From Georgenia sp. M64 (GTDB lineage: Bacteria; Actinomycetota; Actinomycetes; Actinomycetales; Actinomycetaceae), in the NCBI RefSeq assembly GCF_038049925.1, contig NZ_CP145809.1, forward strand, positions 620,001 to 684,000: a stretch of 64,000 nucleotides of DNA. Direction: 5' to 3'. Numbering within the stretch: position 1 is the first letter of the stretch; each line of letters begins with the position of its first letter. Under the pieces are notes generated by a model. The model searched no databases. It was not told the DNA's origin and saw only the letters and a list, made by a program, of their open reading frames with translations. Below, in pieces: positions 21,429 through 26,272 of this stretch. Both the position numbers and the translations under genes were made by a program.

Positions 21429-22700
21429 TCAGCGCGCCGGTCGTCCCACCGGCGCCACGGCCCGGAGGAACCGGCCCAGCAGGGCGGCCACCTGGTCGTG
21501 CTCGATGAGGAAACCGTCGTGGCCGTAGGGCGAGCGGACGTACGCGACGGGCCCGGCGCCGGCGATCCCGGCGGCGATGCGCTCGGACTCGGCCGGGAAG
21601 AACAACCGGTCGCTGTCGACGGCGACGACGAGCGCCTCGGCGGTGACCTGGTCCAGGGCCGCCTCGACGCCGCCGCGGTCACGGCCGATGTCGTGGGTGA
21701 CCATGGACCGGGTGAGGGTGAGGTAGGTGTTCGCGTCGAAGCGGGCGGCGAGCTTGCCCGCGTGGTGGTCGAGGTAGGACTGCACCGCGTACCGGCCGCC
21801 CTCCAGCGGCTCCTCGGCGTGCTGGGGCAGCCGGCCGAACCGGCCGTCGAGCTCCGTGGGGGTCCGGTACGTCGTGTGGGCGATCTGCCGGGCGAGGCCC
21901 AGGCCCGCGTGGGGACCGTGCCCCGGGGCGGCGTCGTAGTAGTCCCCGCCGCGCCAGCCCGGGTCGAGCTCGATCGCCTGGAGCTGGGCGTGCGCCCAGG
22001 CGATCTGCTCCGCCGAGCTCTGCGCGGTCGAGGCGACGACGGCGACGGCCCCGACCCGCTCGGGCTCCGTGACGGCCCACTCCAGGACCCGGTGCCCACC
22101 CATGGACGCGCCGACGACGAGCGCCCACCGCTCGATGCCGAGCAGGTCGGTCAGCTCGACCTCGGCGGCGACCTGGTCACGCACGGTCAGGAGCGGGAAC
22201 CGCGACCCCCACGGTGCGCCGCCGGGGGCCGGGGAGGACGGACCGGTCGTGCCCTGGCAGCCGCCGAGGACGTTGGGGGCGACGACGAAGTAGCGGTCGG
22301 TGTCGATCGCCCGGCCCGGTCCCACCACCTGGGACCACCAGCCGTCGCCCTCGGGGTCGCCGGCGTGCCCGGTGACGTGGGAGTCGCCGGTGAGGGCGTG
22401 CAGGACCAGGACGGCGTTGTCGCCGGCCTCGTTGAGCTCACCCCACGTCTCGTAGGCGATCCGGACGTGGGGCAGGCGGCCGCCGCCCTCGAGGGGGAGC
22501 GCGCCGATGTCGGCGAACAGGCGCGGACCGGGGTCGTCGCCCGGGCGCCACGCCCCCGTCGCGGGGAGGGTGGCGGGGTCACGCTCGCGGCGGACGGGCC
22601 GGGCGCGCAGGGTCCGGGGCGCGGGGGCGCCGCCCGGCCGGGGGTGGCCGGGCGCTCCGTCGGGTGCCCCGTACCCCGGCGTGCCCTGCGTGCCCGGCAT
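21429..22700 (-). CDS. metX: Homoserine O-acetyltransferase
   Basis: A 423-residue alpha/beta-hydrolase-fold acyltransferase that acetylates homoserine, the first committed step of methionine synthesis. Landmarks: LVLHALTGDSHVTGH, LGGCQGTTGPSSP, nucleophile VVGASMGG and the acid/His pair AVDSDRLFF and YGHDGFLIE. The N-terminal 40 residues are a variable Gly/Pro-rich extension. The ATG at 22700 is 2 nt past the metY stop, so the two are one transcript. The open frame upstream is only the metY shadow. Acetyl rather than succinyl transfer is assumed from the actinobacterial family. Confidence 0.95.
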   Translation of the reverse strand: MPGTQGTPGYGAPDGAPGHPRPGGAPAPRTLRARPVRRERDPATLPATGAWRPGDDPGPRLFADIGALPLEGGGRLPHVRIAYETWGELNEAGDNAVLVLHALTGDSHVTGHAGDPEGDGWWSQVVGPGRAIDTDRYFVVAPNVLGGCQGTTGPSSPAPGGAPWGSRFPLLTVRDQVAAEVELTDLLGIERWALVVGASMGGHRVLEWAVTEPERVGAVAVVASTAQSSAEQIAWAHAQLQAIELDPGWRGGDYYDAAPGHGPHAGLGLARQIAHTTYRTPTELDGRFGRLPQHAEEPLEGGRYAVQSYLDHHAGKLAARFDANTYLTLTRSMVTHDIGRDRGGVEAALDQVTAEALVVAVDSDRLFFPAESERIAAGIAGAGPVAYVRSPYGHDGFLIEHDQVAALLGRFLRAVAPVGRPAR

Positions 22701-22702
22701 GC

Positions 22703-24034
22703 TCAGGCCTCCGCGCCGGCCGGCTCGGACGTGAAGGACGCGGCTGCGGCCAGTCCCAGCTCGAGGTCGGCGAGGATGTCGTCGATGTTCTCGATGCCCA
22801 CCGCGAGACGCACCAGGCCCGGGTTCACGCCGGAGGCCGCGAGGTCCTCGGGCGAGAGCTGGGAGTGGGTGGTCGAGGCGGGGTGGATGACGAGGGAGCG
22901 CACGTCGCCGATGTTGGCGACGTTGGAGTGCAGCTTGAGCGCGTCGACGAACGCCAGGCCCGCCGCGTAGCCGCCGGCCAGCTCGAACGCCAGCACCGCG
23001 CCGGCGCCGCGCGGGGCGTACCGCTGCGCGAGGTCGTACCACGGGGAGGACGGCAGCGAGGCGTACGCGACGCGCGTGACCTGCTCCTGGCCCTCGAGGA
23101 ACTCCGCGACGCGCCGGGCGTTGGCGACGTGCCGCTCGATGCGCAGCGACAGCGTCTCCAGCCCCTGCCCGATGAGGAAGGCGTTGAACGGCGAGACGGC
23201 CGGGCCGAGGTCGCGCAGGAGCTGGACCCGGGCCTTGAGGATGAAGGCGGGGGCGCCGAGGTCCTTGTAGACCAGGCCGTTGTAACTGGGGTCCGGCGTG
23301 TTGTAGTTGGGGAAGCGCTCGGGGTCGGCCGACCAGTCGAACGTGCCGCCGTCGACGATGACGCCGGCGATCGAGGTGCCGTGCCCGCCGAGGTACTTCG
23401 TGGCGGAGTGCAGCACGATGTCCGCGCCGTGCTCGAGCGGCTTGATGAGGAACGGCGTGGCGATGGTGTTGTCGACGACGAGGGGAACGCCGACCTCGTG
23501 GGCCACCGCGGCCACGGCCTCGATGTCGAGGACGGCGCTCTTGGGGTTGGCGATGGTCTCGCCGAAGAACAGCTTGGTGTTCGGCCGCACGGCCGCGCGC
23601 CAGGACTCCGGGTCGTCGGCGTCCTCGACGAACGTCGTGGTGATCCCGAACTTCGTCAGCGTGTTCTGGAGGAGGTTGTAGGTGCCGCCGTAGAGGTTGG
23701 GGCTGGAGACGACGTGGTCGCCGGCCTCGGCGATGTTGAGGATCGCCAGGGTCTCCGCGGCCTGACCCGAGGCCAGCAGCAGTCCGCCGATCCCGCCCTC
23801 GAGCGCGGCGATGCGGGACTCGACCGCCTCCTGCGTGGGGTTGGTGATGCGGGTGTAGATCGGGCCCGCCTCGGCCAGGGCGAACCGGCCGGCCGCCTGG
23901 GCGGCGTCCTCGAAGACGAAGGAGGTGGTCTGGTAGATCGGCAGGGCCCGCGCGCCGGTGGCGCTGTCGGGGGTCTGTCCGGCGTGGATCTGAAGGGTCT
24001 CGAAGGCCCAGCTCTGGGGGGTCTCGCTGCTCAT
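22703..24034 (-). CDS. metY: O-acetylhomoserine sulfhydrylase (aminocarboxypropyltransferase)
   Basis: A 443-residue Cys/Met-metabolism PLP enzyme forming homocysteine from O-acetylhomoserine and sulfide. The PLP lysine is in SATKYLGGHG; other marks are YTRITNPTQEAVE, LASGQAAETLAIL, VDNTIATPFLIKPL and the C-terminal RLAVGIENIDDILADLE. An AGGAG site precedes the ATG at 24034 and fixes the start, rejecting the longer frame to 24127. It heads the metY-metX operon. Its roughly 205-nt leader carries a candidate leaderless peptide and hairpins, suggesting attenuation. Confidence 0.96.
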   Translation of the reverse strand: MSSETPQSWAFETLQIHAGQTPDSATGARALPIYQTTSFVFEDAAQAAGRFALAEAGPIYTRITNPTQEAVESRIAALEGGIGGLLLASGQAAETLAILNIAEAGDHVVSSPNLYGGTYNLLQNTLTKFGITTTFVEDADDPESWRAAVRPNTKLFFGETIANPKSAVLDIEAVAAVAHEVGVPLVVDNTIATPFLIKPLEHGADIVLHSATKYLGGHGTSIAGVIVDGGTFDWSADPERFPNYNTPDPSYNGLVYKDLGAPAFILKARVQLLRDLGPAVSPFNAFLIGQGLETLSLRIERHVANARRVAEFLEGQEQVTRVAYASLPSSPWYDLAQRYAPRGAGAVLAFELAGGYAAGLAFVDALKLHSNVANIGDVRSLVIHPASTTHSQLSPEDLAASGVNPGLVRLAVGIENIDDILADLELGLAAAASFTSEPAGAEA

Positions 24035-24218
24035 GGTGGCTCCTGGTTCGGGGGAGTGGAGCGGGCAGACGAGGCTCGGCGTCGCCGCTGTCCCGTCAGC
24101 CCGCAGGGGGCCGGCAGTGACGTGCACGTCCGAGGGGGCGCCCGGTCCCGGCGGGCCGTCGTGAGGTCCCGGGGTGACGCGGCGGAGAGCCGACGTCAGG
24201 GCATGCCGAACGTGCGCG

Positions 24219-24242
24219 TCAGCGGCACATTCGACGGAACAT
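24219..24242 (-). CDS. Candidate leaderless upstream peptide before metY
   Basis: ATG TTC CGT CGA ATG TGC CGC TGA encodes MFRRMCR. Its ATG starts 8 nt after the last base of a TAGAGT -10 box, the geometry of leaderless starts elsewhere in this window. It contains two Met and one Cys codon in seven, rare in this genome. The stop is 184 nt before metY. Cys-rich leaderless peptides acting as attenuators are known in mycobacteria; a sulfur-amino-acid sensor here is inference. Confidence 0.5.
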   Translation of the reverse strand: MFRRMCR

Positions 24243-24249
24243 GTGGCCG

Positions 24250-24255
24250 ACTCTA
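24250..24255 (-). promoter_or_regulatory. -10 box of the metYX transcript
   Basis: TAGAGT on the minus strand (24255 to 24250); the predicted start point is at or next to the ATG of the upstream peptide. The -35 region is weak. Confidence 0.5.
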
Positions 24256-24283
24256 GGAGCGGCGCGAACGCCTGAACAGACGC

Positions 24284-24300
24284 GTCTCATGTGGTGAGAC
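24284..24300. promoter_or_regulatory. Palindromic operator candidate upstream of metYX
   Basis: GTCTCA-TGTGG-TGAGAC, a perfect 6-bp inverted repeat just upstream of the metY -35 region. It is unlike the McbR site of corynebacteria as I recall it; the cognate regulator is unknown. Confidence 0.45.
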
Positions 24301-24473
24301 CTGCGCCACCCGCGACTCGTGCGGGGCGCAGGTGGAGCGCCCCGCGCGTGCCGGGTTCGTCCCGGAGCGGGACAGGCCGGGGGCAAGGCGCTTGGTCGGC
24401 TCCAGTCGTCGTTGTCCGCGATCAGGTGCTTCGTGGGCTCAGGGTGTTGCTGGGCGAGCGATCCCTCCGTCGG

Positions 24474-24528
24474 CGAACGATCACCTCGTGACCGAGCGAT
24501 CCCTCCACACCGCTCTCGTTCGGCAACG
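24474..24528 (-). repeat. Dispersed repeat copy, inverted relative to 14560-14757
   Basis: Aligns with the reverse complement of 14698-14757, sharing GTGACCGAGCGATCCCTCC exactly and about 46 of 55 positions overall. A second GAGCGATCCCTCC stands just upstream at 24455-24467. Confidence 0.85.
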
Positions 24529-24657: not shown

Positions 24658-24736
24658 GGATGTTCCCAAAGAGGTTCAAGTCCGCTACGGTGCGAGAGCG
24701 CGCGCCCCGCACGGTCCGCGCGGACCTGGAGGAACG

Positions 24737-26272
24737 GTGGACGCACGACCCGGTACGCGGCGGATGACGGCCGCCCTCGCCGTCCTTGCCCTGTCGACGG
24801 CAGGCTTCACGGCCGGTGCGACCGCAGCCCCGAGCGAGGACGAGATCGCGGAGTCCCGGGCCGCCGAGACGGTCACGGTCCGGTCGATCGCATCCCTCGA
24901 GGTCGAGCTCGCCACGGTGGCCGCCGAGGTCGAGGAGGCCGCGGTCCGCGCCTCGCTGACCAACGAGGACTTCCTCGCGGCGCAGGCGGCTCTCGCCGCC
25001 GCCGTCAGCACGGCGCAGGAGCGCCAGGCCGAGGCAGACGCCGCGGCCGAGGAGGTGGAGGCGGCACGTGCACAGCTCGGTCAGGTGGCCGCCGCGCTCT
25101 ACCAGGACAGCTCGGTCGGACTCGCCCACATCACCCCCTACCTCTCCTCCGACAGCTTCGCGGAGGCGATGGGTCGCACGTCCACGCTCGAGCGCCTCGG
25201 CAGTCGCGCGGACAAGCACATCCAGCGCTTCCAGGCACTCGAACAGGTCCACCGCACGCTGCAGGGCCGTGCCGACGAGGCGGTCGCCGCGCAGGAACGG
25301 GCCACGGACGAGCTCGGCGCCGCGTCCGAGGCGGCCGAGGCCGGCTACGCCCAGGCGCAGGACCAGGCCATCGTTGCCGCGCAGCGGCGCGGGGAGCTCA
25401 TCGTCGAGCTCGCAGCGCAGCGATCCACCACGGTCGAGCTCGAGCGTGCCCGTCAGGACGCGCTCGACGCCGATCGGCTCTCCCGTCAGGACGCCGCCGC
25501 CCGGTCCCAGGCCCTCGCCGCCATCCCGGCCGCCGCAGCGACGGGCCCTGCGCCCGCCGTCCAGAGCCCGGCTGCCCAGAGCCCCGCTGCCCAGAGCCCG
25601 GCTGCCCAGGCGCCGACCGCGCAGGCGCCGGCCGCGCCGAGCCCGGCCCAGGATCCGGAGCCCGCCCCGGCTCCCGCGCCCGCCCCGGCGCCCGCGCCCG
25701 CTCCGGCGCCCGCACCTGCTCCGGCCCCGGCGCCCGCTCCGGCCCCGGCGCCCGCTCCGGCCCCGGCGCCCGCTCCGGCCCCGGCGCCCGCGCCGGCGCC
25801 TGCTCCGGCGCCTGCTCCGGCGCCCGCACCTGCTCCTGCTCCGGCACCCGCGCCCGCACCTGCTCCGGCCCCTGCGCCCGCGCCCGCACCCGCCCCGCCG
25901 GTCAACACCTCGGCCGTCGACCGCGCGATCGCCTTCGCCCGGTCCCAGCTCGGTGTCCCGTACGTGTGGGGTGGAACCGGGAACCCCGGCTACGACTGCT
26001 CGGGCCTGACCATGCGGGCCTTCGGGGCCGCCGGGATCTCGTTGCCCCGCACCACCCGCGCCCAGTGGGACGTCGCGACCAAGGTGCCGCTGAGCCAGGT
26101 CAAGAAGGGCGACCTGGTGTTCTGGAGCAGCAACGGCCAGCGTTCAGGGATCTACCACGTCGCGATCTACACCGGTGGCAACATGCGCATCCACGCGCCC
26201 AGCCCCGGAAAGACCGTCGAGGAGGTGCCCATGTGGCACGTCAACATCATGCCGGTGGTGGGCCGCCTCTGA
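24737..26272 (+). CDS. Secreted NlpC/P60 (C40) peptidoglycan hydrolase with coiled coil and Pro-Ala spacer
   Basis: 511 residues from GTG 24737. A signal peptide (DARPGTRR, then hydrophobic MTAALAVLALSTAGFTAGA) is followed by an Ala/Glu-rich coiled coil (residues about 35-270, as in RipA/CwlO-type hydrolases), a Pro-Ala repeat (about 307-388) and the NlpC/P60 domain (about 389-511). Catalytic Cys is in YDCSGLTM (near 420), His in YHVAIYTG, third residue likely in MRIHAPSPG. It should cleave D-Glu-to-diaminoacid bonds in the cell wall during division. The frame is open to 24332, but a GGAGG site just before 24737 supports this start; its spacing is short, so ATG 24764 remains possible. Confidence 0.88.
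   Translation: MDARPGTRRMTAALAVLALSTAGFTAGATAAPSEDEIAESRAAETVTVRSIASLEVELATVAAEVEEAAVRASLTNEDFLAAQAALAAAVSTAQERQAEADAAAEEVEAARAQLGQVAAALYQDSSVGLAHITPYLSSDSFAEAMGRTSTLERLGSRADKHIQRFQALEQVHRTLQGRADEAVAAQERATDELGAASEAAEAGYAQAQDQAIVAAQRRGELIVELAAQRSTTVELERARQDALDADRLSRQDAAARSQALAAIPAAAATGPAPAVQSPAAQSPAAQSPAAQAPTAQAPAAPSPAQDPEPAPAPAPAPAPAPAPAPAPAPAPAPAPAPAPAPAPAPAPAPAPAPAPAPAPAPAPAPAPAPAPAPAPAPAPAPAPAPAPPVNTSAVDRAIAFARSQLGVPYVWGGTGNPGYDCSGLTMRAFGAAGISLPRTTRAQWDVATKVPLSQVKKGDLVFWSSNGQRSGIYHVAIYTGGNMRIHAPSPGKTVEEVPMWHVNIMPVVGRL
25659..25901 (+). repeat. Pro-Ala-encoding low-complexity tract
   Basis: About 240 nt of GCNCCN codon pairs in the NlpC/P60 gene, encoding roughly 40 Pro-Ala dipeptides. It is slippage-prone and creates a mirror Gly-Ala frame on the minus strand. 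It probably spans the cell wall. Confidence 0.95.

Follow-up and report, generated by a model that had tools for sequence, protein, structure and literature searches.

The window, the whole stretch of 64,000 nucleotides of Georgenia sp. M64 that was analyzed, carries metY (22703–24034, minus strand), encoding an O-acetylhomoserine/O-acetylserine sulfhydrylase, followed downstream in the same direction by metX (21429–22748, minus strand), encoding a homoserine O-acetyltransferase. The products match NCBIfam models NF005872 and TIGR01326 (metY) and NF047917 (metX) above cut-off, which bears out the identities that the original prediction had given to both genes. The ATG of metY, the presumed controlled gene, lies at 24034 with AGGAGC ahead of it on the minus strand, and is separated by 184 nt from a short upstream open reading frame (uORF; 24219–24242, minus strand), ATG TTC CGT CGA ATG TGC CGC TGA, that reads MFRRMCR. 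A -10 box, TAGAGT (24250–24255, minus strand), stands 7 nt (CGGCCAC) ahead of the uORF ATG, with a weak -35-like hexamer, TGTTCA (24273–24278, minus strand), at a spacer of 17. The box, the ATG at leaderless distance, the peptide and the 184-nt gap had all been claimed beforehand, and each proved exact when we re-read the sequence. Because the -10 box stands 7 nt upstream, the transcript is predicted to begin at the A of the uORF ATG (24242). The host is a soil actinobacterium and, judging from the comparisons below, the seven-codon frame at the very start of its metY messenger is real and conserved across the order.

Conservation of the frame in metY leaders

A lone seven-codon frame is weak evidence; the comparative support, as far as sequence can tell, is far above chance. 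For the 30 metY genes of relatives that were closest by protein match, chosen blind to the leader, we read the sequence upstream and found CGAATG in 24 of the 29 intact regions, nearly always within a short frame whose stop comes two codons on. A pattern search was then built on the CGAATG core. Of 396 genomes of the order, 54 gave a match, in each case a single one, while a reversed control gave no matches, and a scan of named genomes yielded at least 119 stretches, including some from Cellulomonas, Demequina, Actinotalea, Isoptericola, Oerskovia, Myceligenerans and Actinomyces. The gene behind the element is metY or metX only, with metX in Isoptericola and Myceligenerans. Two matches (L106 and L116) were rejected as chance, as they lack a start codon and have no metY context, and a third (L123) is doubtful.

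Since the pattern held nothing upstream of the core, counts of start codons and of promoter boxes are independent of it. Among these pattern-selected elements, 115 of the 118 ATGs within 24 nt upstream of the core are in frame with it (distances of 9, 12, 15 and 21 nt) and 3 are out of frame. Moreover, 136 of 142 unique elements have a TANNNT that ends 6–7 nt ahead of the start codon, compared to 0.4% at control positions, and a TTnC signal starts 24 nt before the -10 box in relatives. The in-frame starts and the TANNNT spacing thus give the uORF a translated and leaderless appearance across the order.

The codons themselves tell a similar story. In Georgenia, Cellulomonas, Demequina, Isoptericola and others, the short frame of the metY leader ends in Arg(CGA)-Met-(Cys)-x-stop. 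Codon counts were made on 32 uORFs that entered through the metY protein rather than through the pattern; all 32 have the internal Met and 29 of them have Cys (3 have none), so that the earlier label “Met/Cys-rich” is a fair one, and the stop is TGA in 29, TAA in two and TAG in one. The Cys codon alternates between TGC and TGT, codon 3 alternates between Arg and Cys, and the third positions of both vary freely. In Actinomyces oris and its kin the frame holds 36 extra nt and is nonetheless kept (MFRRPEALRPDTPTTGRMRS, then stop). There are exceptions: one uORF has lost its stop (L004; MSRRMCRPTRTFGIP, then stop), another lacks the in-frame start (L020), and several metY families have a SAM-IV riboswitch alone, or neither SAM-IV nor uORF. 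Lack of the short frame in relatives had been named beforehand as an outcome that would refute the proposal; the frame came through this test, being kept across the order with an in-frame start at leaderless distance from a promoter box.

Alternative pairings in the leader and a proposed switch

We examined the leader for pairings that a ribosome on the uORF might influence. The end of the uORF (segment 1, CGAAUGUGC; 24225–24233, minus strand) is complementary to a segment directly behind the stop codon (segment 2, GCGCACGUUCGG; 24206–24217, minus strand), which is in turn complementary to an alternative partner further downstream (segment 3, CCUCGGACGUGC; 24124–24135, minus strand). The 1:2 pairing, CGAAUGUG(C) with (G)CACGUUCG, appears in the consensus folds made for the groups of Georgenia, Demequina, Cellulomonas and Isoptericola, and the 1:2 duplex has a mean z of -2.8 relative to shuffles in 112 representatives, a value that is partly fixed by the search pattern. 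GCGCAC is missing from 10 of the 32 metY-selected uORFs; relatives linked to SAM-IV, and some of the leaderless ones, lack the 1:2 pairing.

The strength of the 1:2 hairpin in most of the order and the invariance of the CGAATG hexamer are what one would expect if a structured, riboswitch-like RNA or a DNA element were conserved and the open frame were incidental. We consider this very improbable, given the frame-preserving length changes, the synonymous changes, the use of three stop codons, and the occurrence of the same peptide with a Shine-Dalgarno start and no hairpin; moreover, there is no Rfam match. In the window leader, an Rfam search to an E-value of 5 returned no riboswitch, only a chance match to a miRNA model, in agreement with the earlier statement that no SAM-riboswitch core was found.

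GTGCGC, the exact complement of segment 2, occurs downstream in 77 of 102 leaders compared to 13.3 expected, and a 7-mer complement occurs in 71 leaders (7.8 expected); permuted hexamers reached a median of 10 and a maximum of 37 of the 102 leaders, leaving out the overlapping CGTGCG. Where bases at the end of the 2:3 helix differ, the partner has changed to match in L010, L015 (at a second site) and L049, and has not in another four leaders. Segment 3 of the window was taken from the Georgenia consensus fold rather than from the GTGCGC count; in the folds of this clade the 2:3 pair joins GCACGUUCGG to CCGGACGUGC, about 80 nt downstream. A duplex test of the whole region for 2:3 was not above shuffles (mean z of -0.5), and thus 2:3 rests on the count of the specific complement together with the Georgenia consensus fold. 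A further conserved hairpin, GUCACUGCC...GGGCUGACGGGAC (24090–24121, minus strand), stands upstream of the metY ribosome-binding site in the Georgenia consensus fold.

We then folded the leaders with a ribosome, under the standard assumption that its footprint protects RNA up to 15 nt from the P-site. The mean 2:3 probability was 0.08 in free RNA and 0.00 with the ribosome at the stop codon, but 0.44 when it stalled at Met and 0.36 when it stalled at Cys, and the mean 1:2 probability in the same model was 0.80 without a ribosome. Thus, as modeled, 1:2 and 2:3 are mutually exclusive, with the logic and geometry of a classical attenuator.

Taken with the comparative support for a translated frame, a leaderless promoter and competing 1:2 and 2:3 pairings, these results lead us to propose, with a probability of about 0.68, that metYX is controlled by a ribosome-mediated attenuator that senses shortage of Cys or Met and switches the RNA fold. 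From the box spacing, the A of the uORF ATG would be the first base transcribed, and a ribosome would load directly on the 5′ end and translate M-F-R-R-M-C-R. In RNA without a ribosome, segment 1 would pair with segment 2 (GCGCACGUUCG) behind the stop codon. When Met-tRNA and Cys-tRNA are plentiful, the ribosome would reach the stop codon and cover segments 1 and 2; when either is short, it would stall at AUG-UGC and cover mainly segment 1. Segment 2, left uncovered by such a stall, would therefore be free to pair with the distant segment 3, and we infer that 2:3 is the ON state for metYX. That the codons sense Met and Cys is suggested by the codon content, by the gene context and by analogy with the known Cys uORFs of mycobacteria. 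One feature counts against an attenuator: the Georgenia uORF has a single Met and a single Cys control codon, two codons ahead of the stop, and hence a stalled and a terminating ribosome would differ in position by only 6 nt.

We also looked in the leaders for an output step. Among 77 leaders in which an intrinsic terminator was sought, a T-rich tail was found in one; a 3:4 hairpin was not above shuffles (mean z of -0.4 for the local fold), and we found no U-tracts. Sequestration of the Shine-Dalgarno sequence was rejected as the switch: GCUCC (24058–24062, minus strand) is complementary to the metY Shine-Dalgarno GGAGC (24039–24044), but this pairing is predicted in all modeled ribosome states, and exposure of the Shine-Dalgarno is nearly equal between states (0.37 vs 0.34). 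The output step may be Rho-dependent termination, which is dominant in mycobacteria (PMC11260477), or translation. The mutually exclusive pairings thus speak for the attenuation proposed earlier, whereas termination itself found no counterpart in a U-tract terminator or in a change of Shine-Dalgarno exposure.

The missing terminator would also fit with a simpler role, in which translation of the uORF senses nothing and merely shields the leader against Rho or supplies metY with ribosomes, and there is a precedent in Mycobacterium tuberculosis, where expression behind the B12 riboswitch needs uORF translation (PMC11260477). Such a role seems to us quite improbable, because the uORF stop is about 185 nt from metY, too distant for direct coupling, and because a mere shield would have no use for the Met/Cys content or the alternative pairings.

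SAM-IV-linked relatives, the CGA-AUG core and known leader peptides

The same peptide also occurs behind a SAM-IV riboswitch, in L018, L022, L026, L028 and L242 (VIERMCR, VTCRMRR, VNHHRMRR, MTCRMPF and VNCRMCC, respectively). SAM-IV is identified there by Rfam RF00634 at 107–117 bits, and was found in 13 of 13 riboswitch-linked relatives tested. The uORFs behind it have a Shine-Dalgarno, whereas the others are leaderless, so that two modes of translation start serve one peptide. Across the class, metY leaders combine SAM-IV with MCCCRMTSS, MCCCRMN, MCCCRMQQVTGA and MCCCCRMTRR, and others hold RMCC forms (MCIRRMCCR, MAIQRMCCSGN) or other Cys runs (MHCCCTSIYT, MKICCCTRTVS). From these forms, the recurring feature is Cys and the recurring core is Arg-Met with CGA-AUG.

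The Arg codon before the internal Met (24231–24233 in the window) is CGA in 32 of 32 metY-selected uORFs, even where the RNA pairing is lost, although CGA is a rare codon that accounts for 4 of 130 Arg codons in neighboring genes. We can only guess that this invariance is tied to slow decoding of CGA; an invariant CGA-AUG that is kept despite lost pairing clearly raises the question of how short leaderless frames are decoded.

We considered that the nascent Arg-Met peptide might instead arrest the ribosome, with a small molecule (Met, SAM, Cys or another) as the signal and no part for empty tRNA. Arg-Met is the sole invariant part of the peptide, its Arg codon is the rare CGA throughout, and Cys is lost in some uORFs, all of which speak for such an arrest. 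However, the peptide has only 7 residues and the positions flanking Arg-Met vary; the Cys runs of distant relatives point to tRNA charging, and invariance of a codon bespeaks a constraint on nucleotides or decoding rather than on the peptide. An arrest peptide is thus unlikely in our judgment, and we retain the attenuator that reads tRNA charging.

In the SAM-IV relatives, any reading of the uORF would depend on the riboswitch, so that control would have two inputs, SAM and Cys/Met charging. A broader scenario, tentative and in our estimate somewhat short of an even chance, is that of a dual Met and Cys attenuator centered on CGA-AUG: in sister lineages it would lie behind SAM-IV, with SAM gating the uORF and aminoacyl-tRNA gating metY, while Georgenia and its relatives would have kept the sensor, lost the riboswitch and become leaderless. 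The element would then tie together, across lineages, the control of one gene by riboswitch and by attenuator, and the trade between them becomes testable. If the proposal is true, the element is a natural sensor of both sulfur amino acids, among the smallest leader peptides proposed, and explains metY control in an order where cases free of a SAM riboswitch had no explanation.

Several known systems resemble the element in part. The leaderless polycysteine uORFs of mycobacteria (first seen in PMC4633059; Canestrari et al. 2020, as cited in PMC9094748 and PMC13236596) are likewise short ORFs before sulfur genes, with Cys near the stop and no clear intrinsic terminator, but they contain Cys runs and precede cysA2, nirA or Rv0485. 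The metY element, which precedes metY or metX, has 7–9 codons; its CGA-AUG is invariant, and the number of Cys is usually one or two. The window uORF shares the leaderless start (7 nt) and the location at a sulfur gene, but has a single Cys, with runs of consecutive Cys found only in distant relatives such as those with MCCCRMTSS; with no Cys run, it is not a polycysteine uORF. Similarly, it shares with trp-type attenuators a leader peptide with pathway codons and exclusive 1:2 and 2:3 pairings; because the intrinsic terminator is absent, the element is attenuator-like, yet not a classical attenuator.

Another near parallel is metL of Streptomyces lividans TK24, a leaderless leader peptide of metNIQ that ends in CMCRRMCAF (PMC8079986). 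It too serves methionine genes, shares R-R-M-C and has hairpins without a typical terminator, but it has 29 codons and belongs to a transport operon (PMC8079986). Homology to metL found no support, as pattern searches of seven Streptomyces genomes found nothing. A variant that reads Met as well as Cys, suggested earlier as new, is not wholly without precedent: a leaderless Met/Cys leader before methionine genes was already known in metL (PMC8079986). In Actinobacteria, leader peptides of cys operons and cbs (Seliverstov et al. 2005, PMC1262725) are also short ORFs with Cys codons and a missing terminator, but that survey reported that methionine operons lack a conserved RNA structure upstream, and left metY unmentioned. 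The cysS attenuator uORFC-8-2 of Rhodobacterales has a Cys-codon uORF and alternative stems, but is alphaproteobacterial, has about 15 codons and carries an intrinsic terminator with a U-run (PMC8632094). The B12 riboswitch (PMC11260477) and Mbox (PMC12810186) leaders of M. tuberculosis resemble the SAM-IV-linked relatives in placing a riboswitch before a uORF; these involve another ligand and other genes, and Cys/Met control codons are not discussed in the parts of these two papers available. In the open-access literature on metY with uORFs and on SAM-IV with leader peptides, we found no description of this element.

A second, longer type of leader peptide was seen at other metY genes (L079, L082, L248, L256, L267 and L280), which carries either (H/C/A)VDL or HIDY as a motif and has Cys toward its end. 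The R-x-H-V-D-L...C-R peptide of the HVDL-type Cys leaders of Actinobacteria, present in other metY leaders (e.g., L079, L082 and L267), is not found in the window leader.

The upstream palindrome

The GTCTCA/TGAGAC palindrome described earlier is indeed present upstream of the promoter, as a 17-bp GTCTCA-N5-TGAGAC (GTCTCAtgtggTGAGAC; 24284–24300, no strand assigned). Of 104 promoters, 13 have a GTCTC-N7-GAGAC that starts 45–46 nt upstream of the -10 box, and 42 have the GAGAC arm at this position. The inverted repeat, found at a fixed place in many metY promoters, is likely to be the operator of a transcription factor, on this positional conservation. One could then suppose that the palindrome and its factor alone control metY, and that the uORF is a chance frame in a GC-rich leader. 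The conserved position of the palindrome speaks for the first half of this supposition, but chance is refuted by the in-frame starts, the TANNNT spacing and the codon patterns, and we give this explanation almost no weight beside that of an attenuator.

The sole other GTCTCR-N5-YGAGAC site in the genome (L289:1990–2006; contig 1, 2709289–2709305) precedes a frame that by eye resembles a flavin reductase, beside a gene resembling, also by eye, an ABC-transporter binding protein; this second site may mark a sulfur regulon. Further upstream in the window, CGAGCGATCCCTCC occurs twice, 38 nt apart, between two divergent genes (24455–24506), and the divergent gene at 24735–26272 encodes a protein that looks secreted, in which a long Pro-Ala repeat precedes a C-terminal domain that by eye is NlpC/P60-like.
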